Assembly (NCBI GenBank): GCA_022775045.1
Contig: JALFLB010000028.1
Span: 1-64,000, forward strand
Length of the DNA: 64,000 nt
DNA from: Agathobacter sp.
GTDB lineage: Bacteria > Bacillota > Clostridia > Lachnospirales > Lachnospiraceae
Direction of reading: 5' to 3'
Within the stretch, counting starts at the first letter, position 1. Each line of letters begins with the position of its first letter. The notes under the pieces are model-generated. The model did no database searches. It was not told the DNA's origin and worked only from the letters and a program-made list of their open reading frames with translations. Positions 15,098 to 56,621 of this stretch are shown piece after piece. Both the position numbers and the translations under genes were made by a program.

Positions 15098-15100
15098 CTC

Positions 15101-35210: not shown

Positions 35211-36959
35211 TTAGAGTAATGCAGCTTTTAGTGCTGTCTTCAACAATTCTTTTCTCTTCTCTGCAAAAGTTAAGAAATTATCATATGAATAAACCATATC
35301 CGGAATATAATGAATACTTCTATACTGTTGCTTTGATTCATCCGTAGGATATGTTTTATTGAACCAAATATCAAAATCTTTGTTTTGCTTTTCAATATTT
35401 GGAATAGCTGCCAGCAACTGCAGATTCTCAATATTATTAACTGTATCAATATACAGCTGAATTTTGTCAACTGCAACACCTTGCTGAACAAGGTACTTCT
35501 TAGTGAACTTGCTCTTCGGATACATATGATCCACATGGAATTTATTGTTAAAATCCAATGATGGATACAGCAGCATCAATGTTGATAAAGTTTCACTGCT
35601 TCCATATTTAAGATTCAACAGATATTCTTCAACATCATCGTCGGTAAATACAATCGACTTATTTGTGCCCTTAAAGTGTTCAAGTATCTTATCAAGCGGA
35701 AATTCTTCGGTCCCGTTATCACGTATGATTTCTCTAATCGGACGCAATACATTATCAGGCTGACCACTGAAGGCTTTCTTAAGAAGAGATCTAATAAGCC
35801 ATTTCTTAATCTTATCTCTATTACTCATAGCTGAAGTAGAAACTTCAAAATTATCAGGAAGGCCAATGGTCTTCAAATAATATGCAATCGGAATGACAGC
35901 ATTGTTTGATTTAAGCGTGTCTCTTGAATAACCAAAGCTTGATACAAGAATAAATGCTCTCTTTAAAGATTTCTTTATGGTATCCCAATTAGCTTCAATC
36001 TTAAGCATATTAGGCTTATTGAAGTTATCTACCTTAAATGCAATATTCTTGAAATCAGAAAGAACAAGTGCAGATTTCAGTACGAAATCCTTATTTACAT
36101 TAAATCCATTTCCAATAGCATTGATTTCATCAACAAGTTCAGTTATCTCTTCTCTCGCATCATGGTTTTCCCATTGCGCAGTAGCAATAGAAAGCAAAAG
36201 ATCAGAGTAACTAAGGATTGTTCCTCCACTGTTAACACGGATAAAGATATTTAATACCTTATCAAGTTCTACTGACTTTTCTTTGTAATAACTGATTGAA
36301 GGTTGAGTATGAATAACATTATAAAGCTGTGACAAAACATCCTGTGCATACTCACATTGTTCCTGGCTGTAAACACCGGTAAAAATAATTTCCTTCATCA
36401 GAAATTTTGTAACATCTCCAATAGACGACATGTCTAATATCTTACCTACTTCGTACCAATATGTATTAGAATCATTTTTCACTTCCGAATCTGTTAAAAA
36501 AGCAAATGTATACTTGTTATTTCCGTCCTCACATGGTGATATCAGATTCAAATACAGTTTTCGTTTTGGAAAAGCATCATCATTCTTCCACTGCTTATAT
36601 GGGAGTTTGTATGCATAACTCCCCTTAAGGCCAATATATAAAGATGTAAGTCTCTGCTGTCCGTCAAGAACAGCCATAATATGATCTTCTCCCGTTAAAT
36701 TTGCCTTTGGATTATGTCTTGAATTTCTCTCGTGGTAATGATCTAAGAATCTATAGAAATCATAGTCTCCATAATGGTCCTTAGTAATCTCCCAGAAAAG
36801 AAATGCGCCGATTGGATATCCTTGCATCAAACTGTCAAATAATCTCTCAATCTGTGTCGTTCCCCAAACAAATTCTCTCTGGATTGAAGGCAATACATAC
36901 CTACTTGCAGAAATATCCTTTATAACCTCTGCAATTGTTAATGGTGATTCATATGCCAT
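35211..36959 (-). CDS. DUF262/HNH (GmrSD/SspE-like) protein
   Basis: SIQREFVWGTTQIERLFDSLMQGYPIGAFLFWEI; MAVLDGQQRLTSLYIGLKG (DGQQR); FHVDHMYPKSKF HNH region. Confidence 0.9.
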   Translation of the reverse strand: MAYESPLTIAEVIKDISASRYVLPSIQREFVWGTTQIERLFDSLMQGYPIGAFLFWEITKDHYGDYDFYRFLDHYHERNSRHNPKANLTGEDHIMAVLDGQQRLTSLYIGLKGSYAYKLPYKQWKNDDAFPKRKLYLNLISPCEDGNNKYTFAFLTDSEVKNDSNTYWYEVGKILDMSSIGDVTKFLMKEIIFTGVYSQEQCEYAQDVLSQLYNVIHTQPSISYYKEKSVELDKVLNIFIRVNSGGTILSYSDLLLSIATAQWENHDAREEITELVDEINAIGNGFNVNKDFVLKSALVLSDFKNIAFKVDNFNKPNMLKIEANWDTIKKSLKRAFILVSSFGYSRDTLKSNNAVIPIAYYLKTIGLPDNFEVSTSAMSNRDKIKKWLIRSLLKKAFSGQPDNVLRPIREIIRDNGTEEFPLDKILEHFKGTNKSIVFTDDDVEEYLLNLKYGSSETLSTLMLLYPSLDFNNKFHVDHMYPKSKFTKKYLVQQGVAVDKIQLYIDTVNNIENLQLLAAIPNIEKQNKDFDIWFNKTYPTDESKQQYRSIHYIPDMVYSYDNFLTFAEKRKELLKTALKAALL

Positions 36960-36982
36960 TGTTATCCCTCCTAAATTATCAG

Positions 36983-37075
36983 CTATGGTATGATATCTTC
37001 ATTTGGTGGTGTCCATCCTTCACGATTAATTGTTACTGTATCTCCATGCACAGAAAATGTATTTTTTGACGCCAC
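36983..37075 (-). CDS. Possible 30-aa micro-ORF between DUF499 and DUF262 genes
   Basis: GTG-initiated VASKNTFSVHGDTVTINREGWTPPNEDIIP; no strong RBS. Confidence 0.25.
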   Translation of the reverse strand: MASKNTFSVHGDTVTINREGWTPPNEDIIP

Positions 37076-37096
37076 TATATCACCACACTTTCTATT

Positions 37097-40000
37097 TTAT
37101 TCCTCAAATCCAGACTGATCAATCTTCAAAGTACGGCAGTTCTCCGTTACAGCTCTTACAGTATTAGAATTAAATCCCTTATCAGTATGTGCTGTAACCT
37201 CCAATGAGATTTCGACATCTGCACCATCTGCAGAAGACAGCAGATTTACAACCTCATCCATAAGCTTCTGTACATCTCTTATGACACGCGTATTGTCAAG
37301 CTTCTGGCTCATAAAGAATCTAGTATTTGTAGGTCTTGCAGGAGGCAGTGTTGTACCTCCACCAGGCTGTACTGGATTCCATCCGCCAGGTTGAACCGGT
37401 GTATCTCCACCACCATTACCTGCCGGATTATCCCATCCCGGAATCTCTGTTCCTCCCTGTGGAGGATTCTGAGTCTTCTCAGCACTAATCTGCTTAAGGG
37501 CAACAATTTCCTTCACAATATAATCTGTAAGATAAATTGATGATACATACTCATTATACTTAAGTCCTACATAGCGCTCTCCGCTGATTGACGAAGCCAG
37601 TGCAAAGAATTCATCACTATTAACTCCAGCCTGAATAGCAGATTCTAAGACATTGAAATTTGCAAGCCTTGGCAGGTAGCAGTATGTTGTGATGAACTCC
37701 CAAAGCTTCTTAATTTGAATATGATTATCATCCTTCCAAAGCAGATTATCCAATTCCATCTTAAGCAGAGCCGGAGCCCACTTAGTGATAAGCTGCTCAT
37801 TCTGAAGCATTTTATTAGCAGCTTTGGCAACAACAGATTCAGTTCCGCCACTAATACGATCCACATCCCAGACAAGCTCTCTCATATCGATTTCTCTATC
37901 AATATAAGGAACCAGCAGCCAGCAATATGTTTCCTTTAATCGGAGCCTTACAGTTTCATTGCTTCGATTAATATTATTCTGCGTCTCAGTATTTTGCGCC
38001 GCATCAAGGTTCAGAGTCTCTCTATCAGTCTTAATTGACTGCCATGCAAGTAATTCTCTTACAGCTCTTTCCAGGGCATTAAGGCCATCCTGATCAGGAG
38101 CAACAAAAGCAAGCATGTTACGATATACTCTTGGAGCAGAACCTCTATTATTAAGGATTTCCTCCGCCCGAAGAATAGCCTTTGATCTGTCTTTACCCTG
38201 CTTGTGTACATCTTCAGTTTTAAGAATAACTAAACGTACTGCCTGCTCATCCGAAACATCATTTGATGTGTTAGGGCAAATATGAAGTCCCGCAAATGCA
38301 AACGCTCCTTCCTTACGTAACTCACTTAATCTTCGTTCAATCTCATAAGTCACATCCGCAGAAGCCATCTGGGTGGCTCTATCAGTTGCAGTCTTACGAA
38401 GAGTAGGTCTGGTATCATACCAATATCTATTACCAGAAGGATCTGTATACAGATACGCCAATGATCCTCTAAGAGTATTCAGTGCATCATTAAAATCTGC
38501 TATGCTCTCACCAGGCTGTACAATACCCAAACGTATTCTTGAGGATTCTATACCACGTATATTCTGGGCACGAACTGTAGGAGCGCTACCAAGCATAATA
38601 GTTCTTGAAACTCTTCTGGCTGCGAGTTTCTGGCCGTATCTGATTGTATTCTTATCGAGCTGATACGGAATTGAATTACGGCCGTCTACCTCTCTATCCA
38701 TAATTCCATTCCAGGTTTCAGGAAGATATCTTACAAGCTCGTCACGAACAGTAGGAACATCAAGAGGCAGAGATCCTGGCATGATCATCGCACTAGCATC
38801 ATTCGCCATCCATAATTCATGAATAACAGCAGCCATTAATCTCAGCACACCTCGGGTTCTCTGAAATCTTTCCATCGTAGCCCATTCTTCATAAAGTCGA
38901 TCAAAGATTTCTGGATGAATCGGATAGCATGAAACCATTCTATCCCTATAATCTACTTCCTTGGCTTCAAGCGGAAAATCCAATGAATTTTCCTGATACA
39001 TATTACTAAATGCTGTACATACTGCATTTCTCGCCGCTTCGTCCTTGCAAGGAAGGAACAGTCTGCGTCGCACTACCTCAAAGCCTTCATTTGCAGCAAC
39101 TGGCTTCCAGATAGATTCCTGTCTTCCAAATGTATGCTCAATGGCTTCAAGGGCTCTCTTTCCACCTTCACCTTCTCCGATTTCGATTGCAGACTCCGGA
39201 ATAGAAGCTACTACCATACTATTTTTGCTGGCACTTGCAGCCTCGGTAATCTGCTGGATGAAAGTAATAAAATTATCAAAGGATCCTGAAGGAAGGCCGG
39301 AAACTCCATAAATAGTCTTGGCATATGCAACAAGCTCATCCATAAGAATCAAGCAGGTTCCACAGCCATCCATAAGCTCTTTCAAGGCAACACTACCAGG
39401 TGCAACCCCCTTCTTGTCTGCTTCCTTTACAAGATCATAAAGTTCTGGTTTGTCCGCAGCAATTACAAGCTGCGCAGCCATTTCTCCCCACAACGTATTA
39501 ATTTTCACACCCGGAAGCTTTGGCTCCAGCCTTGATTTTGAAGGATTTAATGCGGTACCTACAAGAACAGCTACATTAACCTTAGGAAGTTCCGTAACAC
39601 CTGCTCTATCAAGTACAGGTTTCAGATTAGGTACCTTACTGATTGGCAATCCACCCCTAGACATATGATACAGTGCCAGCAAACTATGTGTTTTACCACC
39701 ACCAAATGCAGTTTTCAGCTGAAGAACAGGCTCTCCATCCTTCTGCGAAAAACGTCTCAATGCCTGTTCCAAAAGCCCAGACATACCTGCAGTAACATAT
39801 GTGCGTGCAAAAAACTCAACCGGATCTCGGTATTCAAATGCACCTTCGCCTCTGGCTACATCAGCAAGATTGGCAGCAAATTCTGCGTTCTTATACTTAC
39901 CTTGCGCTACATCAGGATGGGGCTCTATGATTTCTCTCCAGCTTGGAAGTTTCTCACCACTTAATCTGGTTAGCACCGCTGCTTCTCCCTTGCCTTTTTC

Positions 40001-40486
40001 AGGCCGTGCATTTCCATTTGTTACTGTTGTAGATCCCATGCTTGAACCATATCGAGATTCCCTCATGATTGAGCGGATTTCCTCAGCCCCCTCCATGTCA
40101 ATAACCTCACAAACTCTTAACATCGTGTCTAAGGCTCTCCAGGTATCATTCTCTGAAAAGTCCTGACCACCGATATGGGCAATTTTATTTCTAACACCCA
40201 TCAGTTCTTTTGCCCAGGTTCTGATGTCTTTTGAAAGCTTAGTCCTGAAAAGTTCATTCCACTGCCTGTCAAAAAGTCTGAGGCAATTAGCAATATCAAG
40301 TGAGTCTACTAATTCACCATATTCACCAATCTTAGGAAGATCTCTTTCCTGATCAGATAAAACAGTCAAGACTTCATGCCACCATCCATCACCGTATTCC
40401 TTATTCATCTCAAAGGCAATGTAGCCAGCAAGAAGCGGATGTAAAACTCTAAATCCTTTTTGTACCAACTCGACATTCTCAGCCAT
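37097..40486 (-). CDS. DUF499 AAA+ ATPase with N-terminal Swt1/HEPN-like domain
   Basis: Walker A LKTAFGGGKTHSLLALYH; LILMDELVAYAKTIYG; N-terminal GVRNKIAHI. Start chosen at ATG 40484-40486 with RBS GGAGG (ORF track start is 40537). Confidence 0.85.
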   Translation of the reverse strand: MAENVELVQKGFRVLHPLLAGYIAFEMNKEYGDGWWHEVLTVLSDQERDLPKIGEYGELVDSLDIANCLRLFDRQWNELFRTKLSKDIRTWAKELMGVRNKIAHIGGQDFSENDTWRALDTMLRVCEVIDMEGAEEIRSIMRESRYGSSMGSTTVTNGNARPEKGKGEAAVLTRLSGEKLPSWREIIEPHPDVAQGKYKNAEFAANLADVARGEGAFEYRDPVEFFARTYVTAGMSGLLEQALRRFSQKDGEPVLQLKTAFGGGKTHSLLALYHMSRGGLPISKVPNLKPVLDRAGVTELPKVNVAVLVGTALNPSKSRLEPKLPGVKINTLWGEMAAQLVIAADKPELYDLVKEADKKGVAPGSVALKELMDGCGTCLILMDELVAYAKTIYGVSGLPSGSFDNFITFIQQITEAASASKNSMVVASIPESAIEIGEGEGGKRALEAIEHTFGRQESIWKPVAANEGFEVVRRRLFLPCKDEAARNAVCTAFSNMYQENSLDFPLEAKEVDYRDRMVSCYPIHPEIFDRLYEEWATMERFQRTRGVLRLMAAVIHELWMANDASAMIMPGSLPLDVPTVRDELVRYLPETWNGIMDREVDGRNSIPYQLDKNTIRYGQKLAARRVSRTIMLGSAPTVRAQNIRGIESSRIRLGIVQPGESIADFNDALNTLRGSLAYLYTDPSGNRYWYDTRPTLRKTATDRATQMASADVTYEIERRLSELRKEGAFAFAGLHICPNTSNDVSDEQAVRLVILKTEDVHKQGKDRSKAILRAEEILNNRGSAPRVYRNMLAFVAPDQDGLNALERAVRELLAWQSIKTDRETLNLDAAQNTETQNNINRSNETVRLRLKETYCWLLVPYIDREIDMRELVWDVDRISGGTESVVAKAANKMLQNEQLITKWAPALLKMELDNLLWKDDNHIQIKKLWEFITTYCYLPRLANFNVLESAIQAGVNSDEFFALASSISGERYVGLKYNEYVSSIYLTDYIVKEIVALKQISAEKTQNPPQGGTEIPGWDNPAGNGGGDTPVQPGGWNPVQPGGGTTLPPARPTNTRFFMSQKLDNTRVIRDVQKLMDEVVNLLSSADGADVEISLEVTAHTDKGFNSNTVRAVTENCRTLKIDQSGFEE

Positions 40487-40490
40487 ATCC

Positions 40491-42788
40491 CTAGACCTCC
40501 TCTTTTTCTGTTTCTTCATTATTTTCATATATTGCATCTAGACAGGCATCTAATTCCTGCTCTATTAAATAAGATGCATCTATTGCTGACATCTCACTTC
40601 CGTCAGCATCCATTACTTTGTTATATCTTGTAAAAATCGTCCAGGCCCTGCCAACAGCACTGCAGCGAAGATCAAATGGTGCAATACTTGTTTTCTGTAA
40701 ATCTTCTATAATTGCAGGGAGCTCCCTCTTTAGATTCACCACAAATCTTCTTCTTGTAGTATCTTCAGCGGCTGAATCCTTTTTTCTTATAACAAGTGAT
40801 ATCGGTAAGCCTTTGTTTTCAGCCTTTCTTATATTCTTTTCGATAGTTCTTCCCACTGGCCAGCTCGCAGTAATCAAGAACCCGGCATCTGAAACAGCTG
40901 CAACAAATTCATCCCATTCGTTTGGCTTGAATTTATCCTGGCTCCCCTCTATCAAAGGATTTCTCTTATAGAAGAATGAAACATTACTTGGATATTCTTC
41001 AACAGCAGACTGATTCATTAGCTGTAGTGATTTTCGTATTCCTGCAGCATAATGGTTTCTTGCCGCCTGTTTGTTTCCGTCAAATCGGTATGCAAAAGTA
41101 ATCAATTCCTCATCCTTAGGCGTTGTAATCGTCGAAAAAAGTTCCGGATATATATCCTTAAGCACATACCTTAGCCATACATAAAAGAAATCTGATAAAT
41201 TAGCATAATCAGCTCTCTCATAATATGGTGGCTCTGTAACAATCATTGCCTTCTGCTCTAAAGGAACAGCAGCTGCATCTGCTGATGAAACCACCGCAGA
41301 CTGTTTTGCTGGTAATACTTCGATAGCATCTGCTGCAGCATTAATTGTTTTTTCCAAACTTCCAGATGATGAATAAAATGGATTAGTTTCAGCAAAATCC
41401 CAGATCATCGGCATCGCTGCTCTGGAAAATACATTTCTAATCTTTCCTCCCGCACTAGAATCCCAACTGGTAAGAGCTGAACTCCTGTCTGTAAGTTTGC
41501 TAAGGGACATCCCTAGGTACACACAAATTGCTTCGCTATACGCTTTAGCGCCTCGACCTTTATCCTTTAACGGTACGCTATTATCATCCCACCCGGAATC
41601 GATAGCGTCCTGTTCTATTTCTTTTCCTATATCTTTGATTAGTCTCGAAACTGTAGTTAAAAATAATAACTGCCTGTTAGTATATAAATCTGAATAATCA
41701 CCAAGGCCAAAATTTGGTGGTGCAAAATTCCCGGAACCTTTTGGCAATTCTCCATGTGGTATATCCTCTGGGAAATCAACCTGAGCACATTTAATTTGCA
41801 ACTCATCTGGTTCCAAATAAATATGCTTATTTCCTTCGTCTGCAACGACCGCCATCAACTGATGCTGGAATCCGGATTTTTTTCCTTCTTCCTTCACATA
41901 CTCATCAGTTGTAATTTCTCCGCATTTCGGACATTTAAATACTGCACTATGCCCTGCTTTAGCCTTTATTGTTAAGTCAGTTCTCTTTTCCCTATGGATC
42001 TTAAAAATAAGTTTTCCATCACCAAGTACTGGCTCTACCCAGGCTTCGCTTCCCTTTTTCTTTGATAAGTCAAATCCGGCAGCAAGAGGAATATTGCAAT
42101 CACATGAAGGATTAGGGCATTTCATCGTTCTGGCCCATATCCAGGAGAAAACATCTCTTTTTACATGATTACTATCTTCTATAGGCGGATAATTATATTT
42201 AAGCATTTCATATGCCTGATCACATAATTTTTTCCCGTAGTATCTGACATCCTCAGCAAGCCCCTCAGCTCCACTCCATATCAGCCTACCTTCTGATCGA
42301 TTTATAGCTGGTTTACCTGAAAACAATGGAGGAATTTCTAATAAGGCTTTATTAATCAATGTTGCTACCGGATTCAAATCCCTTGCGCATACATCTAGCC
42401 CCATTCTCTGCGCTTCTAATGGTATCGAAGCCCCACCAGCAAAAGGATCAAAGCAAATAGGTAATTCTTCTGAATACTTCGCAATTTCTGTAACAGCCGC
42501 ATTAATCACTTCAGCATTATTTGTATTCTCCACCTTTACAAGTTCATTGATGATATCTAAAAGCCTACATCTTTCTCTGTTTTGTGCTTCCTCACTTTCA
42601 AAAAGTTCCGGATGCGATGATGGATCATCCACCAGAGAAGCGAACAATATAGCTCGCTCCTCTGCTAATGTTTTCCTTGACCACCACAAATGAATCGTAG
42701 ATGGTCTACCGGTACGTGCCATCTTTTCTCGATCCATTTCAGATGAGATTATATCTAACGGCAGCGCCACTTCTATTAATTTTTTCAT
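40491..42788 (-). CDS. DUF1156 DNA methyltransferase, EPPY variant
   Basis: TIHLWWSRKTLAEERAI; CFDPFAGGASIPLEAQRMG; VTEPPYYERADYANLSDFFYVWLR; zinc-ribbon CPKCG. Confidence 0.9.
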   Translation of the reverse strand: MKKLIEVALPLDIISSEMDREKMARTGRPSTIHLWWSRKTLAEERAILFASLVDDPSSHPELFESEEAQNRERCRLLDIINELVKVENTNNAEVINAAVTEIAKYSEELPICFDPFAGGASIPLEAQRMGLDVCARDLNPVATLINKALLEIPPLFSGKPAINRSEGRLIWSGAEGLAEDVRYYGKKLCDQAYEMLKYNYPPIEDSNHVKRDVFSWIWARTMKCPNPSCDCNIPLAAGFDLSKKKGSEAWVEPVLGDGKLIFKIHREKRTDLTIKAKAGHSAVFKCPKCGEITTDEYVKEEGKKSGFQHQLMAVVADEGNKHIYLEPDELQIKCAQVDFPEDIPHGELPKGSGNFAPPNFGLGDYSDLYTNRQLLFLTTVSRLIKDIGKEIEQDAIDSGWDDNSVPLKDKGRGAKAYSEAICVYLGMSLSKLTDRSSALTSWDSSAGGKIRNVFSRAAMPMIWDFAETNPFYSSSGSLEKTINAAADAIEVLPAKQSAVVSSADAAAVPLEQKAMIVTEPPYYERADYANLSDFFYVWLRYVLKDIYPELFSTITTPKDEELITFAYRFDGNKQAARNHYAAGIRKSLQLMNQSAVEEYPSNVSFFYKRNPLIEGSQDKFKPNEWDEFVAAVSDAGFLITASWPVGRTIEKNIRKAENKGLPISLVIRKKDSAAEDTTRRRFVVNLKRELPAIIEDLQKTSIAPFDLRCSAVGRAWTIFTRYNKVMDADGSEMSAIDASYLIEQELDACLDAIYENNEETEKEEV

Positions 42789-42812
42789 TGGCGAGACGCC
42801 ACCTCCTCGTAT

Positions 42813-45596
42813 TTATACTAAGTCAAAAAGACTCATCTGTTTTGGTTCCATCGCCTGAATTGTCGCTGCTCTTGACTGGATTTCAGGCCATGAAACAACC
42901 AATGCGTTGTATGCATAAGACTCCTGACTCCATCCTTTTCTTTCCGATATAGTATATAAGCGATATGCTAAATCTTTTGCCTTTTCAGGTTCCGAGCCAT
43001 ACATATTAGAAATCAAAGTTGCACACGCTTCTATTCCTCCATTTTCCATTGCCCGAGTCAGCTGCTGACATAATAGCCAAGTTGATACATGTGAATCTAC
43101 TTTTTCAGTAAGTTCCTTACGTTCCAATAAATGAACAGTTCCCTTTTGCGCAAAAAGTATTCCTGATGCAGCCATAGTTGCAACTGATGTATTTTTTGCT
43201 CTAGCTAAAGTATCCGCCTCACCAAATTTCATGTCATTAAATGCATACTGAGAATATACATCCACACAAAATCTACTATCTCTATCCAAATCACCATCTT
43301 GTTCATTGAAAAAGAGATCTAATTCTTGATTAATTATTTGAAGTGCACTCCTTACAGACATTTCCGAACCATCAGATTCAAGAACCTTGCTATATCTTGA
43401 GTACACGCCCATACCTGGTCCAATTGCTGATTGAGCAAGATCTACTGGTGCAATATTGCTCTCCTGTAACTTTCTCAATGCCGGTCTAAGTTCTTTTCTT
43501 AAAGCATTAACAAAATTTCTTCTTGTAGTCTGCGGAGCATCATCACCACGTTTTCTACACACAAGAACTATTGATGAAGCAAGTGCATTCCAATTTGTTT
43601 TTAACGCTTTTATCATTTCAGTTCTAACCGGCCAAGTTCCTGTGATTGTAAATCCAGCTTTTATAATTGCACTAAGCATTGTTTCCCATCCTGAAGATGC
43701 TGTGGCTTGATTTTCTCCATTGTCCTCTGTTTCACTTTGCTTATAGGCATAATAAATAGTCACAGGTATTTCATCTGTAGCATATAGATACATATTCCTA
43801 CATGCTTGCAACATACCTTCCTCGAAGAAATTCTTTGCTTGATCAATATCTCCATCAAATCGATACCTTTGAGCAACTATTTCTTCGTTTTTCGGAGTTA
43901 ACATTGTTCCAAATAATTCTGGATAAATATCTTTAATGTTATACCTAAGCCAAATATAGAAGAAGTCTGACAAATCAGCATAAGGAACATTATCATAATA
44001 TGGCGGATCCGTTGATATCATTATATTGCGAAGACCGCAATCTGTTTGTGCATCAGCCTGTACTGCAGTACCTTGCAATCTATCCTTAGGAAATGTTTTT
44101 ATACAATCAGCAATATACTCATTAACCTGGGTAAAACTACCAACTGAATTTCCAAAAATATTTGCTTCTGGATAATCCCACGTCATTGATATTGCTTGCC
44201 TACTAAATAGAAACATTACCTTTTCATTTGTAGGTGCCCATTTAGTAACAGTATTTGAGAAATTAGAAACTCTATCAATAGAAAATGCTAAGTAAACCGC
44301 TATTGCTTCGCTATAAGCCCGAGCGCCCGTTCCGCCTTTTGATAATGCAATATGATCATTTTTCATACCTGCAGCCACAGCATCTTCCTCTATTTGAGAT
44401 TTGATATCCTTCAATGCATCGCTCAAAGCAACCAAAGTCTGCATTTGTCGATTACTAAAAAGCATTTCAAACTGATTCAAGCCGTATGCATTGGTATTAA
44501 GACATCCTGGGTAATAAGATATAGCCCCAGCTGGATAATGATCTGGCAAATCAACTTTCGCAGCCATCTCCTGCTCAATCGTTGGGCTCAAATACATCTT
44601 ACTACGCCTTCCCTCTGCAACTACAGCTGCTAATCTGGCTGATAATCTTCCTGCCTTTCCTTCTTCTCTTACATATTCAAATTCTACAGGGGAATTGCAG
44701 CAAGGGCAAACAACACCACTACGACTTACTGTTCCGCTTTTTTTGCCTGGATATTTTTTATTTTCTACTTCAAAACTTAACCGGCCATTCTCATATACTG
44801 GCTGAATATATGCTTCTCTTCCTTTTTTACTTGAAAGTACATAGCTTTTTAACAACGGCAATTCACTACCACATGTTGGGTTAGGACATTTAACAGTTCT
44901 AGTCCAAATCCATGCAACTGCTGTTGTTTCTCCACCACCTTGTTCTGAAGGAATTAGGACCTTAGGATACATACTTCCAACGGTCTCAAACGCTTTTTTC
45001 TTTATATGTTCACCGTAATATAATATATCCTCAGTAAGTCCTGTTACTCCTTCCCATTTGCTTTGATCAAACCCTAGCTCAGCTCTTTTGTTTTCATTTA
45101 TAGGCGCGTTCCCACTAAAAGCAATAGGTATTTCTATCATAGCCTTATTAATCATAACGGCTACTGGATTTAAATCATGAGCAAATGTTTTTAACCCTAG
45201 TCTACTTGCTTCAAACGGAATAGCACCTCCTCCTGAAAAAGGATCCAAAAAGACAGGGGGATTGTTATTTGTTGCTTTAAGAATTTCATCTTTTGCAGCA
45301 TTTATTACGCTCTCATCATTAGAGTTTTTCCAATCCGCAAGCCTAATTAAAATATCAAATAATCTCTTTCTCTCTTTTGCCTGTGCTTCTTCCGTCGGAA
45401 ATGCATCCACATTCGAAGATGGATCATCAATGATACTCGCCCAAATAATTGCTCTCGCTGTTGTAAATGGACGCCGTGCCCACCAATGATGTATCCCTCT
45501 TGGATGCGGGCCAATTCCAGGCATCTTCTCATATTCAGAAGCTGCATTCATCTGCTCAAGTGGCAATGCCACCTCAATTAACTTCTTGTTTCCCAT
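42813..45596 (-). CDS. DUF1156 DNA methyltransferase, DPPY variant
   Basis: IHHWWARRPFTTARAI; FLDPFSGGGAIPFEASRLG; STDPPYYDNVPYADLSDFFYIWLRY. Start MGNKKLIEV at 45596 with RBS GAGAGG. Confidence 0.92.
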   Translation of the reverse strand: MGNKKLIEVALPLEQMNAASEYEKMPGIGPHPRGIHHWWARRPFTTARAIIWASIIDDPSSNVDAFPTEEAQAKERKRLFDILIRLADWKNSNDESVINAAKDEILKATNNNPPVFLDPFSGGGAIPFEASRLGLKTFAHDLNPVAVMINKAMIEIPIAFSGNAPINENKRAELGFDQSKWEGVTGLTEDILYYGEHIKKKAFETVGSMYPKVLIPSEQGGGETTAVAWIWTRTVKCPNPTCGSELPLLKSYVLSSKKGREAYIQPVYENGRLSFEVENKKYPGKKSGTVSRSGVVCPCCNSPVEFEYVREEGKAGRLSARLAAVVAEGRRSKMYLSPTIEQEMAAKVDLPDHYPAGAISYYPGCLNTNAYGLNQFEMLFSNRQMQTLVALSDALKDIKSQIEEDAVAAGMKNDHIALSKGGTGARAYSEAIAVYLAFSIDRVSNFSNTVTKWAPTNEKVMFLFSRQAISMTWDYPEANIFGNSVGSFTQVNEYIADCIKTFPKDRLQGTAVQADAQTDCGLRNIMISTDPPYYDNVPYADLSDFFYIWLRYNIKDIYPELFGTMLTPKNEEIVAQRYRFDGDIDQAKNFFEEGMLQACRNMYLYATDEIPVTIYYAYKQSETEDNGENQATASSGWETMLSAIIKAGFTITGTWPVRTEMIKALKTNWNALASSIVLVCRKRGDDAPQTTRRNFVNALRKELRPALRKLQESNIAPVDLAQSAIGPGMGVYSRYSKVLESDGSEMSVRSALQIINQELDLFFNEQDGDLDRDSRFCVDVYSQYAFNDMKFGEADTLARAKNTSVATMAASGILFAQKGTVHLLERKELTEKVDSHVSTWLLCQQLTRAMENGGIEACATLISNMYGSEPEKAKDLAYRLYTISERKGWSQESYAYNALVVSWPEIQSRAATIQAMEPKQMSLFDLV

Positions 45597-45606
45597 AATT
45601 TTCCTC

Positions 45607-48600
45607 TCATTCTTGATACAGAATCTCTGCATTATTCACAAGATCCTGAATATCAAAATTCACGCTGGTCGCTGTAAAGTCCGGCGAATTTTTAAATGGT
45701 TGTCTTAGATATACAGTGTGTGTTGCGTCTCCATCAACCTCTACGATTGCAAGAATATAATCCTGCTGCTTATTCAAAGCTGTAAGGATTTCATTCTTAG
45801 AAACCGTTACTGTAGTCGATCCTTTTGCACGGCCTTTAACTTCGATAAATCTAAGTCTTCTGCCATACTCCAAGATTCGCTCCGGAATTCTGGATTCGAT
45901 ATCATAACCACACTTAACTCCGCTCACATCGAACGGAGCATATCCAAAGCTACGCTCAATCGCCATAACTCTATCCATAGCTACATATTCTATGGTCTGA
46001 CGATCTCCATGAGCAAACAGGCTATGCTCAGTGCTACCTTCCAGAGAATGCAACAAACCTTTGGGAATAACCAAAGCTCCGCCTGTTACAACCGGCGGCA
46101 TAGCAGAAATTAATCTTTCCTTATCAAGTTCTGCCAATCTTGCCTGCATTCTCATTTGCAGTTCCTCTGCACGACGTTCTGCTCTTTGAGAATTCAGCCT
46201 GTCATTATGCTTACCTTTTGACTCCTGTTGCTTAAGTTCAGCTGCTCTAAAATCCCAATATTGGATTTCTGCAGTCATCCTCTCCTTAACAGCCTTTGTG
46301 GTCTTATCGATAATCTTTGTTTTTCTTTCTTTGACTTCAGCAAAATGTTCCGGAATCAGGTTTCCGATTGCGTAGCCCTTAGCCCTGTCTTCAACACCCG
46401 ACATAAGCCATTCCTGCCTTGAAAGCCATCTCTTTATCTTTGCTAATTCGTCTGCATTTGGTGCTCTATAATCAAGGTATGGTGCGTAACCTGCATTCAC
46501 ATCTGTTCCGTTTTCTTTCAGCTCAACGAAATGAATATGCTTTGATATCACTCGTTTTCCGCCTGTAGGAAGGATCACTCCATCCTGCACAGCATCTTCT
46601 ATGTAGAAAAGAAGCCTTGCATCCTTTGAATAATCTGTATCATCAATGAAGATTGAACCTCTCTTCATGACATCCACGTTTCTCTCGCTGATCAGATCAA
46701 TAACAGCCTCCAAAAGAGGGTGCCCAGGACTCAATAAAGATGCCTGCGTTAATCCTGGAACATTACAATATTCCTTATCAAAGCACACGCGCTCATAACG
46801 ATTCAACACTGGTTCACCATATCCAATTTGCATATCTCTGTTTCTGACCGCAAATGGAACAGAACTAATTTCATATCTGCCCTTTTCTCTAGGTCGTATT
46901 TTTCCTCCCAGTGACTTAAAGGCTTCTATGAAGAATGCCTCTATGAAATGAGGCTGAAGCTTATGCGCCTCTCTTCTTTCCATATCTTCTCTGATGGATT
47001 CTATCTTGTGGACATCCATAGAGTCTTCTGTGAGTGCTCTTTCATCAAGAAGTTGTCTCAGCTTATCCTTATCCATGGCATGGTCAACAACTTGAGTCAG
47101 TTTAGCTCTCACCTTAGGATCATCACCATATCTTATAGCTTCTATTAACAAATCCTTCAAGGACTTGTTATCAAAAGTCATCTTTCCAAGAATATCAAAT
47201 ACCTTTCCACCAAGAGCCTCTCGCTCCTGTTCGAGCTTTTCGAACAGTCTCTGGAATACAGCACCTTCTCTGGTTTCCTTCGCCACAAGATTCCACAGAT
47301 GGCAGACTTCAGTCTGTCCAATACGATGTACACGTCCAAATCTCTGCTCCAGGCGATTAGGATTCCATGGGAGATCATAGTTAACCATTAAATGAGCTCT
47401 TTGCAGGTTGATACCTTCGCCTGCAGCATCTGTGGCTATCAGTATCTTTACATTCTTATCCTGCTTAAATAATTCCTCTACTTTTCTGCGTTCATCACGA
47501 AGCATTCCACCGTGAATCGTTACTACTGATTCGTCACTTCCAAACAGTGATCTTATCTTTTCTGTAAGGTATTTCAGTGTATCTTTATGTTCCGTGAAGA
47601 TAATAAGCTTTTCTCTGCGGCCTTCATCACTAAACATATTTTTATTATCCTGAAGGAGCTTTGAAAGCTCGTCCCACTTGCGGTCCTCACCACTAGCTCT
47701 TACTTCCTTGGCCATTCCTTCAAGATTCTTTAATATTTCGATTTCTGCCTCTAACTCTTTTATTGTTGCAGCAGCAGATGCACGATCTACAACATCATCT
47801 TCAAACTTGTCCTGCTCTTCTGGTGCAAGATCGTCCTCGTCATAGTCTTCATCAAAATGTACTAAATATTCAGCTGCGCGCTTGCCAAGTTTTTCCTCAG
47901 CAAGACGGTTTTCTAATCTCTCACGTCTTCTCTTTAAAGACTGATAAATAGCTTCCGGCGAAGACGCCAATCTTCTCTGCAAAATAGTCAATGCAAATCC
48001 TACAGTAGATTTACGTTCATTATTCAGATTATCTGCTCTGTTAAACTCTTCCTGAACATACTCTGTAACAGCCGTGTACAGTCTTGCTTCTGCCGGTGAT
48101 AAATCGTAATTGACAGTATATGCTCTACGCTCTGGGAAAAGAGGTGTACCATCAAATTTCAACAGTTCTTCTTTTACCAATCTTCTCATTACGTCCGATA
48201 CATCCACAGACTGATTGCTGGATCTAACAACACCTTCAAATCTTTCTGGATCCACAAGTGATAAAAACAGATGGAAGTCCGCCTCTTTTCCGTTATGCGG
48301 TGTAGCTGTAAGCAGCAAAAAGTTTCTGGTAATATTTGAAAGCATCCTGCCTAATTGGAATCTCTTTGTGTATTTAATCTCTCCGCCCCATACTGTAGCA
48401 GACATTTTATGAGCCTCATCACAAACCACAAGGTCCCATTCCGTCACCTTTAACTTCGCCTGAATATTCTCATTTCTCGCAAGTTTATCCAGCTTGGCAA
48501 TACAGAAATTCATTTCTGTGAATATATTGCCGCTCACTGCAGATTCTATTCTGTCATTTGTCAATATTTCGAAACGCACATGAAATTTCTGATACAATTC

Positions 48601-49107
48601 ATCCTGCCACTGTTCTACCAAGCTTCCAGGAGCAACAATCAGACATCTTTTCAGGTCGCCTCTGGCCATAAGCTCCTTAATAAGTAGGCCCGTCATAATA
48701 GTCTTTCCTGCTCCAGGATCATCTGCCAATACATATCGAAGCGGTAATCTAGGAAGCATTTCCTGATACACTGCGGATATCTGATGAGGCAGCGGTTCTA
48801 CAGATGAAGTATGCACTGCCAGATATGGATCAAAGATGTGCGCCAGATGTATTCTATATGCTTCAGATGCAAGTCTCATTGCATCAGCATCAGCATCAAA
48901 GCTCCATGGCAAGCTCTTTTCTAAAAGCTGAATTCTTTCCTCATCTTCCCTGTATACAATCTGATTTGCCAGCTGTCCCTTACTATCTTTATATGTAATC
49001 TCAATTGCGGCACTGCCATACCATTTCACACTAATAACATTGACAGTTTCATTACCAGCCAACCCAATCAGATTGGCTCCAACTGTCATTTCTTCTAGTT
49101 TGGCCAC
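45607..49107 (-). CDS. DrmD-like SNF2-family helicase with C-terminal DUF3883/nuclease-like domain
   Basis: LADDPGAGKTIMTGLLIKEL; VVCDEAHKMSA; LLLTATPHNGKEADF; RFGRVHRIGQ; C-terminal LRFIEVKGRAKGSTTVTVSKNEI. GTG start with RBS GGAGGTG preferred over the ORF-track start at 49149. Confidence 0.88.
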   Translation of the reverse strand: MAKLEEMTVGANLIGLAGNETVNVISVKWYGSAAIEITYKDSKGQLANQIVYREDEERIQLLEKSLPWSFDADADAMRLASEAYRIHLAHIFDPYLAVHTSSVEPLPHQISAVYQEMLPRLPLRYVLADDPGAGKTIMTGLLIKELMARGDLKRCLIVAPGSLVEQWQDELYQKFHVRFEILTNDRIESAVSGNIFTEMNFCIAKLDKLARNENIQAKLKVTEWDLVVCDEAHKMSATVWGGEIKYTKRFQLGRMLSNITRNFLLLTATPHNGKEADFHLFLSLVDPERFEGVVRSSNQSVDVSDVMRRLVKEELLKFDGTPLFPERRAYTVNYDLSPAEARLYTAVTEYVQEEFNRADNLNNERKSTVGFALTILQRRLASSPEAIYQSLKRRRERLENRLAEEKLGKRAAEYLVHFDEDYDEDDLAPEEQDKFEDDVVDRASAAATIKELEAEIEILKNLEGMAKEVRASGEDRKWDELSKLLQDNKNMFSDEGRREKLIIFTEHKDTLKYLTEKIRSLFGSDESVVTIHGGMLRDERRKVEELFKQDKNVKILIATDAAGEGINLQRAHLMVNYDLPWNPNRLEQRFGRVHRIGQTEVCHLWNLVAKETREGAVFQRLFEKLEQEREALGGKVFDILGKMTFDNKSLKDLLIEAIRYGDDPKVRAKLTQVVDHAMDKDKLRQLLDERALTEDSMDVHKIESIREDMERREAHKLQPHFIEAFFIEAFKSLGGKIRPREKGRYEISSVPFAVRNRDMQIGYGEPVLNRYERVCFDKEYCNVPGLTQASLLSPGHPLLEAVIDLISERNVDVMKRGSIFIDDTDYSKDARLLFYIEDAVQDGVILPTGGKRVISKHIHFVELKENGTDVNAGYAPYLDYRAPNADELAKIKRWLSRQEWLMSGVEDRAKGYAIGNLIPEHFAEVKERKTKIIDKTTKAVKERMTAEIQYWDFRAAELKQQESKGKHNDRLNSQRAERRAEELQMRMQARLAELDKERLISAMPPVVTGGALVIPKGLLHSLEGSTEHSLFAHGDRQTIEYVAMDRVMAIERSFGYAPFDVSGVKCGYDIESRIPERILEYGRRLRFIEVKGRAKGSTTVTVSKNEILTALNKQQDYILAIVEVDGDATHTVYLRQPFKNSPDFTATSVNFDIQDLVNNAEILYQE

Positions 49108-49165
49108 AAAAACACCTCCAAATAGTTTTATCCATGATGATTTTATCAATGAAACTGTCCGTTAT

Positions 49166-49447
49166 TTAGGACTCAGAAATCTTTTCTTCATTAGCCTCTT
49201 CAATTTCATCGCCTTCAACCATCTCCATAATGTCCGAAAAATCACAATCAAGCGCATTGCATATCTTTACTAACACATCCGTTGTAATATTGGCATTTTT
49301 ACCAAGCTTAGCTAGAGACGCAGTACTGATTCTGCTTTTCTCTTTCATCTCAGTGCGATTCATTTTTTTATCAATCAATAATTTCCACAGTTTATCGTAA
49401 CTTATTGTTTTAGCCACTCTTGTTACCTCTAATAATTCAATTAACAA
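49166..49447 (-). CDS. XRE-family HTH regulator
   Basis: ISYDKLWKLLIDKKMNRTEMKEKSRISTASLAKLGKNANITTDVLVKICNALDCDFSDIM. Confidence 0.9.
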   Translation of the reverse strand: MLIELLEVTRVAKTISYDKLWKLLIDKKMNRTEMKEKSRISTASLAKLGKNANITTDVLVKICNALDCDFSDIMEMVEGDEIEEANEEKISES

Positions 49448-51289
49448 TTAATTTCTTACACTCTTTAAAAATCCATATCGACCATTTTCTTCCATTGTAA
49501 ATATCACTCTGTTTGCCTTGGTATAATCTACATTTTCTGGAAGCTCATTTTCTGCGATAATCACCTGATTCTCTCCACAGTTATCTATGATATATTGAAT
49601 CAAAGACTCTCTCATTCCAGCCGTTGCCTTTTCATTTTCCTTGATTTCATATTTTTTCTCTTTCAGTGAAAGAATAGGTGAATCCAACACCAATATCCTT
49701 AATGCATATTTCCCGTTCGTTTCAAGATATTTCATCAGGTTAACCAGCATAATAGTATTTAGGAATGCTCTATAACCTTTACCCTGATTCTTTTTATGCT
49801 TACTTCCTACAACTATATCGGCCGTATTTATATTTAATCTTGACTCAGGCTGTCCTGTATAGGCACATTCCTTTACCATTAAATTGATGCTGTCGCTCAG
49901 TTCCTTCCATATATCTTTATCAAAGTTTTTCTTGGCATCAAACTTAACAGCCTTTTCGTCATCTTCATTTTCCTTTTCGAATACATCCGTACCAAGCTCC
50001 GATGACATATATGAAATAGAGTCTAACTGCTGTCTTACCTGCTGAATTCTTCTGTATTCAGCTACCGCCGCTCTTAATTCTGATGACCTTGGCCTTAGTT
50101 TCTGATTCAGAAGATTCATTATGTCAGCATTTTTAGCATTAAGATTCTTTAATGACTCCTCAATAGATTTTATCTCTGTACGCGTGTATGACTCTGTTGT
50201 TTCCAGATCACCAAGCTGCAGCCTAATTCTTCCCATTTCCGCCTTTGCTGATTCTACATAAGCGGTATGATCCTCATCCTCAATATCCATATCTTGACCA
50301 CAGAATGGGCAACTATCCTTATGCTTTATACCATTGCTCTTAACATCTCCATCCACAATAAAATTAAGTCTCTTAATATCAGACATATATTGTGAACGTA
50401 AAGCCTTATACCGGTTGCTCAGAAATCTTGCTTCCTGGAGTTTTTCATTCAACGTAAATATCTGATCCAACAATTTGCGGCTCTCTTCAGATGCTCCAAC
50501 AATCTCTTTATCAATTTGCTCAATTTCAGCCAAGAACTCCTCGATTTTTGCATCAAGGTTCACATCATCATCTTCAACAATCAAATCTTCCAATTCCTTT
50601 TTCTGATTAGATAATTTCTCAATCTTCTCATTCAAATATTTAATGACTCCTGCCTTCTGATCTGCACGTTTTTCTAATTCCTTCACACTGACTTCTGGCA
50701 GAAATCTTTTCAAATCATCACCATTGATCAGATATTGAAGAGCTGTCAGACTCTTTGTTATCTTCGAATGCCCTGGAGTATCAAGAGGTGTTCTCTTTTC
50801 AAATATATTTTCTTCTCCCAGGAAAAAGAAATGGAATATTGTACGTATCGTAAGATCTTCATCCTTTGGTGCCTGCGTCGCAATTACCCTTGGGCGTTCC
50901 TTTATCCCCAAGAGTTTTAACAGGGCATCACTATATTCTTTTGTACTAATTTTTAATTCTGTACCTTCTATTCCCGGAACCGTAGTACTTATATGAACGG
51001 TGTTAGATCCTCGTTCACCATTCTCGCCCTCTTCAATCTTTCGCTCCGCTCTGAATGTATATCCATCATCCGATTTTATCTCAATACTGACGGTATTGTA
51101 TCCCGTATCAGCAATAGTAAATGGAACCTCTTCACCGCCAAACATAAAATCGATGCAGGCAATTACAATAGACTTACCCGTATTTGATGGACCTTCTATT
51201 ATGTTCACTCCATCCTCGAATTCTATAGAAGAATATGCCTTACCTTCTCCAGAGGCTGCTATCTTTGTAATATAGAATCTACTCATCAT
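49448..51289 (-). CDS. ABC-three-component system ATPase (Rad50/SMC-like)
   Basis: IIEGPSNTGKSIVIACIDFMFGG Walker A; coiled coil with CPFCG; ILVLDSPILSLKEKK Walker B-like; overlaps the next two ORFs. Confidence 0.85.
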   Translation of the reverse strand: MMSRFYITKIAASGEGKAYSSIEFEDGVNIIEGPSNTGKSIVIACIDFMFGGEEVPFTIADTGYNTVSIEIKSDDGYTFRAERKIEEGENGERGSNTVHISTTVPGIEGTELKISTKEYSDALLKLLGIKERPRVIATQAPKDEDLTIRTIFHFFFLGEENIFEKRTPLDTPGHSKITKSLTALQYLINGDDLKRFLPEVSVKELEKRADQKAGVIKYLNEKIEKLSNQKKELEDLIVEDDDVNLDAKIEEFLAEIEQIDKEIVGASEESRKLLDQIFTLNEKLQEARFLSNRYKALRSQYMSDIKRLNFIVDGDVKSNGIKHKDSCPFCGQDMDIEDEDHTAYVESAKAEMGRIRLQLGDLETTESYTRTEIKSIEESLKNLNAKNADIMNLLNQKLRPRSSELRAAVAEYRRIQQVRQQLDSISYMSSELGTDVFEKENEDDEKAVKFDAKKNFDKDIWKELSDSINLMVKECAYTGQPESRLNINTADIVVGSKHKKNQGKGYRAFLNTIMLVNLMKYLETNGKYALRILVLDSPILSLKEKKYEIKENEKATAGMRESLIQYIIDNCGENQVIIAENELPENVDYTKANRVIFTMEENGRYGFLKSVRN

Positions 51290-51744
51290 CTATCCTCCTG
51301 TCGAAATGATCTATCAGATAACTGATAAATGTTAGCAATCAACTCACGTTCTGACATGCCTTCAGTTTCCTTAATTACTGTCTGCGCAGTTCTTCTATAC
51401 TCCGCAGCGTAGTCGCTATGCAAAGACTGGCTGTAATCCTCCCCTTCTGGAGTAATTACATACGACATTCCATCCTTATAGATTACGGCATGCACAGTAC
51501 CATTCAGTACCAACTCCTTCAGAGCTTCTCTTGCCAATTCTCTATGTGATGCAAACTCACTAAATTTCAGATCATTTTCACCATGTAAGTTATGGTTATC
51601 TATGCCAAATGCCGCACTGTAAAGCGTCATAAAATCCACTGCATAAAGCATATCCATTGTCTGTGGCATGTCGTACTCATCAAGTAGGATAAGAAGGCGA
51701 AGCGAATACTCAAATATCGAATTAAAGACCTGCTTCGTCATCAT
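51286..51744 (-). CDS. ABC-three-component system middle component
   Basis: FEYSLRLLILLDEYDMPQTMDMLYAVDFMTLYSAAFG wHTH-like; overlaps the ATPase and effector genes. Confidence 0.75.
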   Translation of the reverse strand: MMTKQVFNSIFEYSLRLLILLDEYDMPQTMDMLYAVDFMTLYSAAFGIDNHNLHGENDLKFSEFASHRELAREALKELVLNGTVHAVIYKDGMSYVITPEGEDYSQSLHSDYAAEYRRTAQTVIKETEGMSERELIANIYQLSDRSFRQEDR

Positions 51745-52699
51745 CTCTCACCCACCCTTCTATGGAACCATCCTTCACAAGGAAATGACAGACTCCCTTT
51801 TTTTGGGGCACACCTATCCAATCGGTATCGCGGAATAGCCAGCATCTGCTCGAATTCAATTCCCCTGCTCTTTTCTGTACCGTTCGCAATCTATCCATAC
51901 CACTCTTGGCAGAGTCCTCATAATCCTCTTTAACGAACTCATATGTTTCGCTTTTCAGAATATCAAATTGACTTTCCTCATCATAGATATCCCTGGTACC
52001 ACGCCTCACAGCCTCTGCAGCAAAATAATACTTACGCTGCTCTCTTAAATGCCTCTCATACTTCGGATAGTTTGCAATATTATCCAATGAAAATGACGGC
52101 ATCTTTTCAGCCTGAGCATATATTTCTTCCAAGGCAGTTATGTATTCGCGTTCTTTCTTAATTATTGCATCAGGTATTTCAGAATCCTCTAAAGGATGTC
52201 TCTTATACTCCTCAAGCTCGATATTCAAACGTTCTTTAGCTTCTGGCCCCAGAACATTATCTCTTGTAAGAGAATAAAGATACACCTGACCAAGGAAATC
52301 ATCAAAGGTTTCCTTTTTCCCAAGCCTAAGCATTTCGTCCTTTTTGCTATCAGATATTTTGACCCCATCTTCCTTTATTACACCTCTGATATGAAAAATT
52401 ATTTCTTCTTCCATATCTGGCATAAAATGGCATGTAACATTTTTCTTAAAAAATGCACCTATAGATGATTTCACTACAGCATCCTGAGAATGTCCTTTTA
52501 TTATTCGAAGTGGCTTACCGCCTGGTTCTCTGTTTACGATTTTACTAGCAGCACCTTTTTGAACTTTATTAATTTGTATCCCCAACGGTTCAGCTACGCC
52601 TCTATAAAGCAGCTCGATGAGATCCGGATCGCTGATTTCATCAACAAATGCATTTTTGATTTCTGCTATAACCGTGGCAAAAACCAGTTCTCGCAACAC
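51722..52699 (-). CDS. ABC-three-component system effector/variable component
   Basis: First gene of the overlapping triplet; typical size and position for the third ABC-3C component. Confidence 0.65.
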   Translation of the reverse strand: MLRELVFATVIAEIKNAFVDEISDPDLIELLYRGVAEPLGIQINKVQKGAASKIVNREPGGKPLRIIKGHSQDAVVKSSIGAFFKKNVTCHFMPDMEEEIIFHIRGVIKEDGVKISDSKKDEMLRLGKKETFDDFLGQVYLYSLTRDNVLGPEAKERLNIELEEYKRHPLEDSEIPDAIIKKEREYITALEEIYAQAEKMPSFSLDNIANYPKYERHLREQRKYYFAAEAVRRGTRDIYDEESQFDILKSETYEFVKEDYEDSAKSGMDRLRTVQKRAGELNSSRCWLFRDTDWIGVPQKKGVCHFLVKDGSIEGWVRDDDEAGL

Positions 52700-53801: not shown

Positions 53802-54077
53802 CTATATGCATTTTCTTACATTCAATTGGTAGTCATCATGTTTCACGATACTCTTAATCGCCTGTCTCAGAGTTCTTGCGTGTCCGTGCTGATGATATCC
53901 GTCCTTAAAACGATGCTTATGGAATATGACCAAAGCTTCCTCTGTAGGATATCCGGCACAGTGCAGGTACCAGTAATGACCAGTATTCCTGCTCTGTATC
54001 GTCACATCCTGACTATCAGCAATTATGATATTGAAATAATCTCCATCAATCTTATCAAGGCTCTTCTGTTCGAACAT
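53802..54077 (-). CDS. Hypothetical protein downstream of parB
   Basis: 91 aa overlapping the parB 3' end. Confidence 0.6.
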   Translation of the reverse strand: MFEQKSLDKIDGDYFNIIIADSQDVTIQSRNTGHYWYLHCAGYPTEEALVIFHKHRFKDGYHQHGHARTLRQAIKSIVKHDDYQLNVRKCI

Positions 54078-55029
54078 TCGCAGCCTCCTTACTGAACCAG
54101 GCTTCCAATGCCTGTTCCACTATTGCATCCACCTGGTTCGGGTCCATTCCCTCAAAGTATTTCTCTACAATTCTACTCGGAACCTTATAGCATTTCTTTT
54201 TGATGGGCGCTGTGCTTAGATATCGTTTTACCATTGCCTCTGTCAGAGCACCAGAATGACTTCTAAGCTTCATAACCATCTCTATGGTGATTTTAGTTTT
54301 CTTCTCCTTCATAATCTCATATACCATCGTCTGCTCATTCTCCGGAAGGAAAGCCAGCTGTAATGCCACCTTCGTATAGAGGGCACCTCTATCCACAATA
54401 TCCTTGAAGGGTTTAATCAGGTCATTCAGCTTAAGCAATCTCCCCACAGAGCTACCGGACAATTCATACTCTTTGCCAATAGAATCTCTGGTCTTTAACT
54501 TGTGGTCACTGTGACCACAAGTTACATCTACAACCGGCTTTCCCTCTAACCTTGCAATCTCATTCAAAATATCATTTCTCTTTCCCTGGCAGGAGCCCTT
54601 CTCATACCTTGCCTTCAGCACTGCTGCCTTCTCAGATATTGCCAAATCCGAAAATGACCTCTGCATCAGATTCGTTTCAATCACATAAACATAAGCCTCT
54701 TCCTCAGATAATCCAGTCTTCACTATCGCCGGTATTTCCTTAATTCCTGCCAGCTTAGCTGCATTCCAGCGGTTATGCCCGGAAAGCATTTCATAACCGG
54801 TATCAAGCTTCTGTACAATAACCGGATTGAGCACTCCGTGCTCCTTCACACTTGCAATCATATCTTCTAAGCGTTCTCCCTCATACAGATGAAATGGATG
54901 ATCGTGAAAAGGATGAATATTCTTCACTGGTACCATCTGAACACCTTTTGGCATTGTTACTTCTTCCATATCTCCCATCAGCAGATCCACTGCATCACCA
55001 AATACTTTTCTCTTTGAATTAGCCTTCAT
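54055..55029 (-). CDS. parB: ParB-family partition protein
   Basis: IHPFHDHPFHLYEGERLEDMIASVKEHGVLNPVIVQ...MLSGHNRWNAAKLAG. Confidence 0.95.
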   Translation of the reverse strand: MKANSKRKVFGDAVDLLMGDMEEVTMPKGVQMVPVKNIHPFHDHPFHLYEGERLEDMIASVKEHGVLNPVIVQKLDTGYEMLSGHNRWNAAKLAGIKEIPAIVKTGLSEEEAYVYVIETNLMQRSFSDLAISEKAAVLKARYEKGSCQGKRNDILNEIARLEGKPVVDVTCGHSDHKLKTRDSIGKEYELSGSSVGRLLKLNDLIKPFKDIVDRGALYTKVALQLAFLPENEQTMVYEIMKEKKTKITIEMVMKLRSHSGALTEAMVKRYLSTAPIKKKCYKVPSRIVEKYFEGMDPNQVDAIVEQALEAWFSKEAANVRTEEP

Positions 55030-55810: not shown

Positions 55811-56130
55811 TGCACCTCTCTTCCGTTATATTCTGTATTTCTCTCAGCCACAAACTGAGCACGAAGTTTTGCTTGCTCCGCCTGGAAACGTTTCTGAAGC
55901 TTTTTCATTTCCTTATCCATAAATTCAGCTTCTTCCTTTACCCTTGCAGCCTTTTCTGCATCCGGAGTGATAATCAGCTTTCCATCCTCACAGCTGACAG
56001 TGATGTAGTCACCAATCTCAAATCCCATTTCCTTGAGCCATTGACCTTTGAGAATAATGGTAGGTGTTGCCTTGTAGTTATATCCGCTCTGTTCGTGAAC
56101 CTTCATGCTTCTAATCTTCTGATTTTTCAT
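55807..56130 (-). CDS. SymE/AbrB-like protein
   Basis: ATPTIILKGQWLKEMGFEIGDYITVSCEDGKLIITPD. Confidence 0.75.
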   Translation of the reverse strand: MKNQKIRSMKVHEQSGYNYKATPTIILKGQWLKEMGFEIGDYITVSCEDGKLIITPDAEKAARVKEEAEFMDKEMKKLQKRFQAEQAKLRAQFVAERNTEYNGREVQ

Positions 56131-56248
56131 AAGCTTGTCTCCTTTTTCAATCAAATGTCATTTTTTGAAAATCTTACATAGTCTTATGTATCAATCTGTG
56201 CTATACTCTTTACAGGCATATCTGCCAATACACATGCTGGAGGCTGTC

Positions 56249-56476: not shown

Positions 56477-56478
56477 AA

Positions 56479-56527
56479 CATCCGGTGACGTATGGATACA
56501 TTTCCACACATCACCGGATGATTTTTT
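56479..56527 (+). terminator. Rho-independent terminator
   Basis: CATCCGGTGA ... TCACCGGATG ATTTTTT. Confidence 0.85.
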
Positions 56528-56621
56528 CTCTCATGAGTTATCTCCGTTGTGTAATTTTCTATATGAGTATATTTGCAACAAGGCTCCCCATCTGCATGTT
56601 TTTTCATTATTTTCTACACAT

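Follow-up and report, generated by a model that had tools for sequence, protein, structure and literature searches.

The gene on the minus strand at positions 37,097 to 40,486 of the 64,000-nucleotide stretch of DNA analyzed here (the window) almost certainly encodes the HEPN-DUF499 protein of an Hma, or Type-1 BREX-related (BR), system. It is predicted to be the ATPase gene, hmaC, of a complete and restriction-like operon of this type. The unexpected feature of this operon is that it carries two METHYLTRANSFERASES, both DUF1156. One of them, HmaB1, has been exchanged between near-identical operons, and the other, HmaB2, is likely to be a pseudo-methyltransferase. Fusions of HEPN and DUF499 domains have been known since 2013 from a bacterial anti-phage system, and the window appears to add one more member to that group. 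The novelty of the operon appears to be its second methyltransferase.

The open reading frame finder places hmaC at 37097-40537 on the minus strand and assigns it 1146 amino acids, and HmaC residue numbers given here follow this numbering from the start at 40537. However, the ATG at 40486 appears to be the better start, because a GGAGG sequence lies upstream of it at 40500-40496 with a spacing of 9 nt, and because the relatives of HmaC align from the Met encoded at this position (MAEN-). The coordinates 37097-40486 used in a preliminary description of this DNA were therefore right, and are better than those of the mechanical reading frame.

Pfam assigns the N-terminal region of the protein to HEPN_Swt1 (PF18731, E 9.5e-29), with 100.5 bits against a cut-off of 27.5 and coverage of the whole profile (1-115), and assigns residues 320-974 to DUF499 (PF04465, E 4.6e-36). 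The PADLOC model for HmaC, PDLC00662, scores 1030.5 bits over residues 197-1146. These matches confirm the earlier proposal that the protein joins a Swt1-type HEPN domain to an AAA+ ATPase of the DUF499 type. The two segments on which that proposal drew, GVRNKIAH and AFGGGKTHSL, are both present where it had placed them, and RNKIAH fits the Rx4-6H motif of HEPN domains with a polar residue after the R. The features of the window are collected in Table 1.

Table 1. Features of the window discussed in the text. A minus sign marks the reverse strand.
Feature	Position	Strand	Basis or content
Tn916-type integrase	355-1623		
Prophage part of the window	355-35163		integrase, HTH, lysin, tape measure, capsid, terminase, SNF2, D5 primase, DUF2800, ssDNA-binding protein, DNA polymerase A
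Defence cluster between phage DNA polymerase and ParB/ParA	35211-52699		GmrSD-like HEC-05, Hma, small HTH gene, Lamassu
HmaC, HEPN_Swt1-DUF499 AAA+ ATPase, 1129 aa from ATG 40486	37097..40486	-	Pfam, PADLOC, RBS, starts of relatives
Walker B-like LILMDE, residues 396-401	39335..39352	-	L398, D400 and E401 invariant (14-row alignment)
Walker A GGGKTHS, residues 279-285	39683..39703	-	invariant through H284 in 14-row alignment
HEPN_Swt1 domain, residues 27-147	40097..40459	-	Pfam PF18731 E 9.5e-29; helical in AF2 model
Rx4H catalytic-type motif RNKIAH, R116-H121	40175..40192	-	R and H invariant in 36/36 relatives
HmaB2, second DUF1156 methyltransferase, 765 aa, predicted catalytically degenerate	40491..42788	-	Pfam, PADLOC, motif table
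HmaB2 motif IV, EPPY replacing DPPY	41223..41234	-	motif table
HmaB1, full-length DUF1156 N6-type methyltransferase, 939 aa	42813..45632	-	Pfam, PADLOC, motif table
HmaB1 motif IV, DPPY intact	43998..44009	-	motif table
HmaA, SNF2 helicase with C-terminal NOV_C (DUF3883-type) nuclease domain, 1180 aa	45607..49149	-	Pfam, PADLOC 1680 bits
NOV_C domain with GYDIES...IEVKG (D...ExK) nuclease motif	45709..45993	-	PF13020 5.7e-20
Small HTH gene	49166-49447		
Lamassu-type ABC-3C operon LmuB/C/A	49448-52699		
ParB, ParA, SymE-like, AbiEi/AbiEii toxin-antitoxin genes	54055-58325		
tRNA-Thr	58821-58896		

Members of the HEPN superfamily have metal-independent RNase activity, usually as dimers. An Rx4H motif alone is weak evidence for such a domain, because 0.93 occurrences are expected by chance in a protein of HmaC composition, and 0.09 in the HEPN stretch. 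The predicted HEPN assignment rests on the HMM match and on the invariance of the R and H residues, and not on the motif alone. Relatives of HmaC were gathered from GTDB genomes and IMG/VR contigs. The R and H, whose conservation in orthologs the preliminary description had treated as decisive for its proposal, are kept in register in all 36 relatives that carry both HEPN and DUF499 (21, the IMG/VR contig L087 and 14 more, a few of them near-copies), even though the identity of the HEPN domain to the window copy falls as low as 22% among them. The PF18731 family is matched by each of the 18 aligned relatives, and two members have an additional cross-match to HEPN_RiboL-PSP. In the pair formed by loci L004 and L087, dN/dS is about 0.01 for the HEPN domain and about 0.04 for the remainder of HmaC. 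Thus, both the invariance of R and H at such low identity and the low dN/dS indicate that the predicted HEPN domain is real, constrained at its catalytic-type motif and under strong purifying selection.

The AF2 model of the HEPN domain is all-helical, with a mean pLDDT of 80.7 and values above 90 across most of the domain. A Foldseek search of the PDB and BFVD with this model gave no match at E<0.001 and TM-scores around 0.2, and a sequence search of the PDB with the HEPN domain and the HmaC profile found no solved relative. The domain is modular, and two changes suffice for it in the HmaC tree. It is missing from the close HmaC relatives L048 and L108-L112, so that it is dispensable for the core function. 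At one further locus (L007, G079:C13:58947-59264), only the HEPN part is matched, in an open frame of 1202 aa that has no match to the HmaC core. There, the domain appears to be joined to something other than this core.

HmaA and both methyltransferase genes lie upstream of hmaC on the same strand, and PADLOC names the four genes HmaA, HmaB, HmaB and HmaC, with scores of 1041 and 682 bits for the two HmaB genes. The methyltransferase-containing system that had been assumed as the context of the gene is therefore present. The ATG of hmaC is located 5 nt past the hmaB2 stop (40491) and has its own ribosome-binding site, which argues for a single operon. The D...ExK nuclease motif of HmaA is kept in 19 of 19 aligned relatives. 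Because HmaA already carries a predicted DNase effector, the HEPN domain would be the second effector of the system. With four genes, the operon departs from the usual organization of three genes and one methyltransferase, and we treat it as a four-gene variant because all three core components are present.

The components of canonical BREX are PglZ, BrxC (DUF6079) and PglX. None of these was found by Pfam and PADLOC among the proteins scanned from the operon and its neighborhood, and the ATPase is of the DUF499 type, which does not fit canonical BREX. The NCBIfam models for anti-phage-associated DUF499 and DUF1156 proteins (NF042962 and NF042963) give 172 against a cut-off of 1200 and 113-133 against a cut-off of 1000. 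These scores are so far under the cut-offs that the locus is placed outside both families.

HEPN domains of the Abi2/Swt1 family fused to a DUF499 AAA+ ATPase were described in 2013 in R-M-like operons with an SNF2-DUF3883 helicase (PMC3710099). The Ava_2192 type described there has the same order as HmaC, with an N-terminal Swt1-family HEPN domain followed by the DUF499 AAA+ ATPase, and its operon includes an SNF2 helicase-DUF3883 fusion and R-M components, as in the window. Its HEPN-ATPase is no different, but the accessible part of that paper does not mention a degenerate second methyltransferase. Hma was named in 2021 as a three-gene operon (PMC8565338). Its HmaA, HmaB and HmaC models all match the window at high score, although the window has four genes and the HmaC model lacks the HEPN part (the match starts at residue 197). 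A publication from 2026 calls the system Type-1 BREX-related and reports the HEPN-fused variant in 1370 taxa (PMC12839542). Type-1 BR shares with the window the N-terminal HEPN-DUF499 arrangement, a DUF1156 N6-methyltransferase and an SNF2 helicase with a C-terminal PD-(D/E)XK domain. However, it is tripartite with one methyltransferase, whereas the window adds a methyltransferase without DPPY or the C-terminal region. The same publication suggests that the HEPN domain is a last-resort suicide effector, and the hypothesis of the preliminary description is therefore near to published proposals (PMC3710099, PMC12839542). We found no RNase activity experiment on any HEPN-DUF499 protein in the accessible literature, and no report of an Hma arrangement with two methyltransferases in the openly searchable literature, to which subscription papers mostly do not belong.

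The left of the window holds integrase, lysin, tape measure, capsid and terminase genes, followed by genes from SNF2 to DNA polymerase A that extend to 35163. DNA polymerase A is followed in order by the GmrSD-like HEC-05 gene, the Hma operon and the Lamassu genes. A search for the prophage attachment site gave no convincing repeat (15 bp at best) in this window, which starts at a contig end. Nor was a boundary of the element found near the toxin-antitoxin and tRNA-Thr genes to the right. In the L087 contig, the corresponding phage genes recur in an unchanged order, with identities of about 26-82%, and the Hma operon occupies the matching position, next to a convergent DNA polymerase. This shared gene order and position identify the Hma operon as cargo of a temperate phage family in at least two cases. 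A truncated DNA polymerase is kept at the same position in L004. In L087, a NACHT gene (14910-17447 and 17491-19725) separates Hma from the phage DNA polymerase and takes the place that HEC-05 has in the window. This position appears to be a variable defence slot.

Two methyltransferases are found in the window and in five related loci (L002-L005 and L087). One is found in the HEPN-bearing relatives L047, L049, L050, L052-L060 and L062 of the phylum, a count limited to operons complete enough to read. Among the 27 HmaB-bearing genomes of the phylum sample, only that of the window has two HmaB genes at the threshold used. The family sample yielded no HmaB2 locus beyond the window's own genome, and a search for HmaB2 on plasmids gave 178 records, all below 60% identity, with no B2-like gene among the matches listed.

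The DPPY motif is present in all 31 of the HmaB1 and single-copy enzymes used for comparison and is missing from HmaB2 at all six loci, where EPPY, ELPY, DLPY or TLPY takes its place. HmaB2 proteins are 763-778 aa long and lack about 150 C-terminal residues, and with them the HTH region. Most of SAM motif I persists (DPFxGG), and the residues D137-L138-N139 are invariant. The confident AF2 model of HmaB2 (pLDDT 85.5) has a full methyltransferase-like fold, and Foldseek ranks SAM methyltransferases on top, with weak matches of E above 0.05. All HmaB2 copies form one clade within Type-1 HmaB (support 100/100) and are of single origin. At L003 (4900-7723), HmaB1 is read in two frames (401 and 525 aa) beside an intact HmaB2, owing to either a frameshift or an assembly error. 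At L097 (4898-9971), HmaB is broken into fragments of 636 and 329 aa that lie about 2.2 kb apart, probably because of an insertion.

Between L004 and L087, identity is 96.9% for HmaA, 96.3% for HmaB2 and 98.5% for HmaC, but 60.4% for HmaB1. The divergence of HmaB1 lies in its N-terminal ~690 residues, beyond which identity is 88-100%. The HmaB1 tree is also discordant, in that HmaB1 of the window pairs with that of L005, whereas HmaC of the window falls outside the other five. Thus, HmaB1, or its recognition and catalytic part, has been exchanged while HmaB2 has stayed with HmaA and HmaC. Because HmaB1 is exchanged and HmaB2 is constant, we infer that HmaB1 would carry specificity and catalysis and that HmaB2 would be its non-catalytic partner.

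The loss of the motif makes it likely that HmaB2 is a pseudo-methyltransferase that serves as a fixed, non-catalytic partner, although it may have a role unrelated to HmaB1. It could instead be an active second methyltransferase with another specificity and an unusual motif IV, as the retention of motif I and of the D137-L138-N139 residues and the complete fold would allow. We consider this unlikely given the variation of motif IV among HmaB2 copies, set against its constancy in the comparison enzymes, and the missing HTH region. A decaying duplicate without a role would also show a lost motif and a shortened protein. However, this explanation is highly improbable, since the reading frame is open in six of six loci, the copies form one clade, and dN/dS is 0.055-0.068, which indicates purifying selection (synonymous sites are unsaturated in the L004/L087 pair alone). 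In addition, the genes of the operon retain their order, and the start of hmaC is coupled to the hmaB2 stop. A comparable case is METTL14, which carries EPPL, has been judged catalytically inactive and is the partner of METTL3 (PMC5023411). METTL3-METTL14 resembles HmaB1 and HmaB2 (EPPY) in combining a DPP-type active enzyme with a degenerate paralogue. However, it is a eukaryotic RNA enzyme with no family relation to the Hma proteins, and the pairing of HmaB1 with HmaB2 is our speculation.

On balance, we favor a model in which HmaC acts in a prophage-borne Hma/Type-1 BR system where HmaB1 methylates, HmaB2 is its partner, HmaA cuts DNA and the HEPN domain is a second effector. Judging from knowledge of the family, HmaB1 would most likely methylate host and prophage DNA and so protect self. 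HmaB2 would contribute to DNA binding or act as an allosteric or scaffold component, and would remain fixed during the exchange of HmaB1. HmaC, again judging from the family, would drive the assembly of a scanning complex on DNA with ATP. Once unmodified DNA is encountered, HmaA would translocate along it and cleave it with its PD-(D/E)XK domain. The HEPN domain of HmaC would probably dimerize across the ATPase oligomer. By cleaving RNA, it would serve as a second effector, or one of last resort, and halt the infected cell. The preliminary description envisaged a possible RNase effector under the control of the ATPase and of methylation status. This is plausible, although both the gating of the HEPN domain and the sensing of methylation are conjectural. 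That description had recognized neither the known system, the conserved DNase motif of the helicase and the pair of methyltransferases, nor the location of the operon in a prophage.

The HEPN domain probably has RNase activity. It might instead be a structural or RNA-sensing module that binds RNA or dimerizes to regulate the ATPase, as has been proposed for the inactive Swt1 HEPN domain of eukaryotes. PMC3710099 judges the eukaryotic Swt1 HEPN domain inactive, HEPN-less HmaC proteins exist, and a nuclease is already present in HmaA. However, the same source calls the bacterial DUF499-fused group active, and the R and H are invariant even in the most diverged HEPN domains, so that this alternative seems rather unlikely. 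We would give equally little weight to an RNase that acts in normal restriction without a suicide switch, for example on phage mRNA near the scanned DNA. The physical joining of the domain to a DNA-scanning ATPase and the RRM-like C-terminal domain of DUF499 proteins (PMC12839542) are in keeping with such a role, but an abortive function would fit equally. We lean toward a secondary or abortive effector as the function of the HEPN domain.

This member of the HEPN-ATPase group is useful because the RNase activity of HEPN-DUF499 proteins seems to be unassayed in the accessible literature. The four-gene form also provides a natural test of how the Hma family separates modification, recognition and killing, with a retained methyltransferase that is probably unable to methylate beside one that is exchanged between near-identical operons. 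In the window, this Hma-type system is prophage cargo within a slot of variable defence genes. We tentatively suggest that temperate phages infecting Clostridia of the gut and rumen spread a Hma/Type-1 BR sub-lineage in which the pseudo-methyltransferase HmaB2 pairs with an exchangeable, active HmaB1 and couples its specificity to the HEPN-ATPase. If this is true, the sub-lineage could switch its recognition sequence while the effector core stays fixed.
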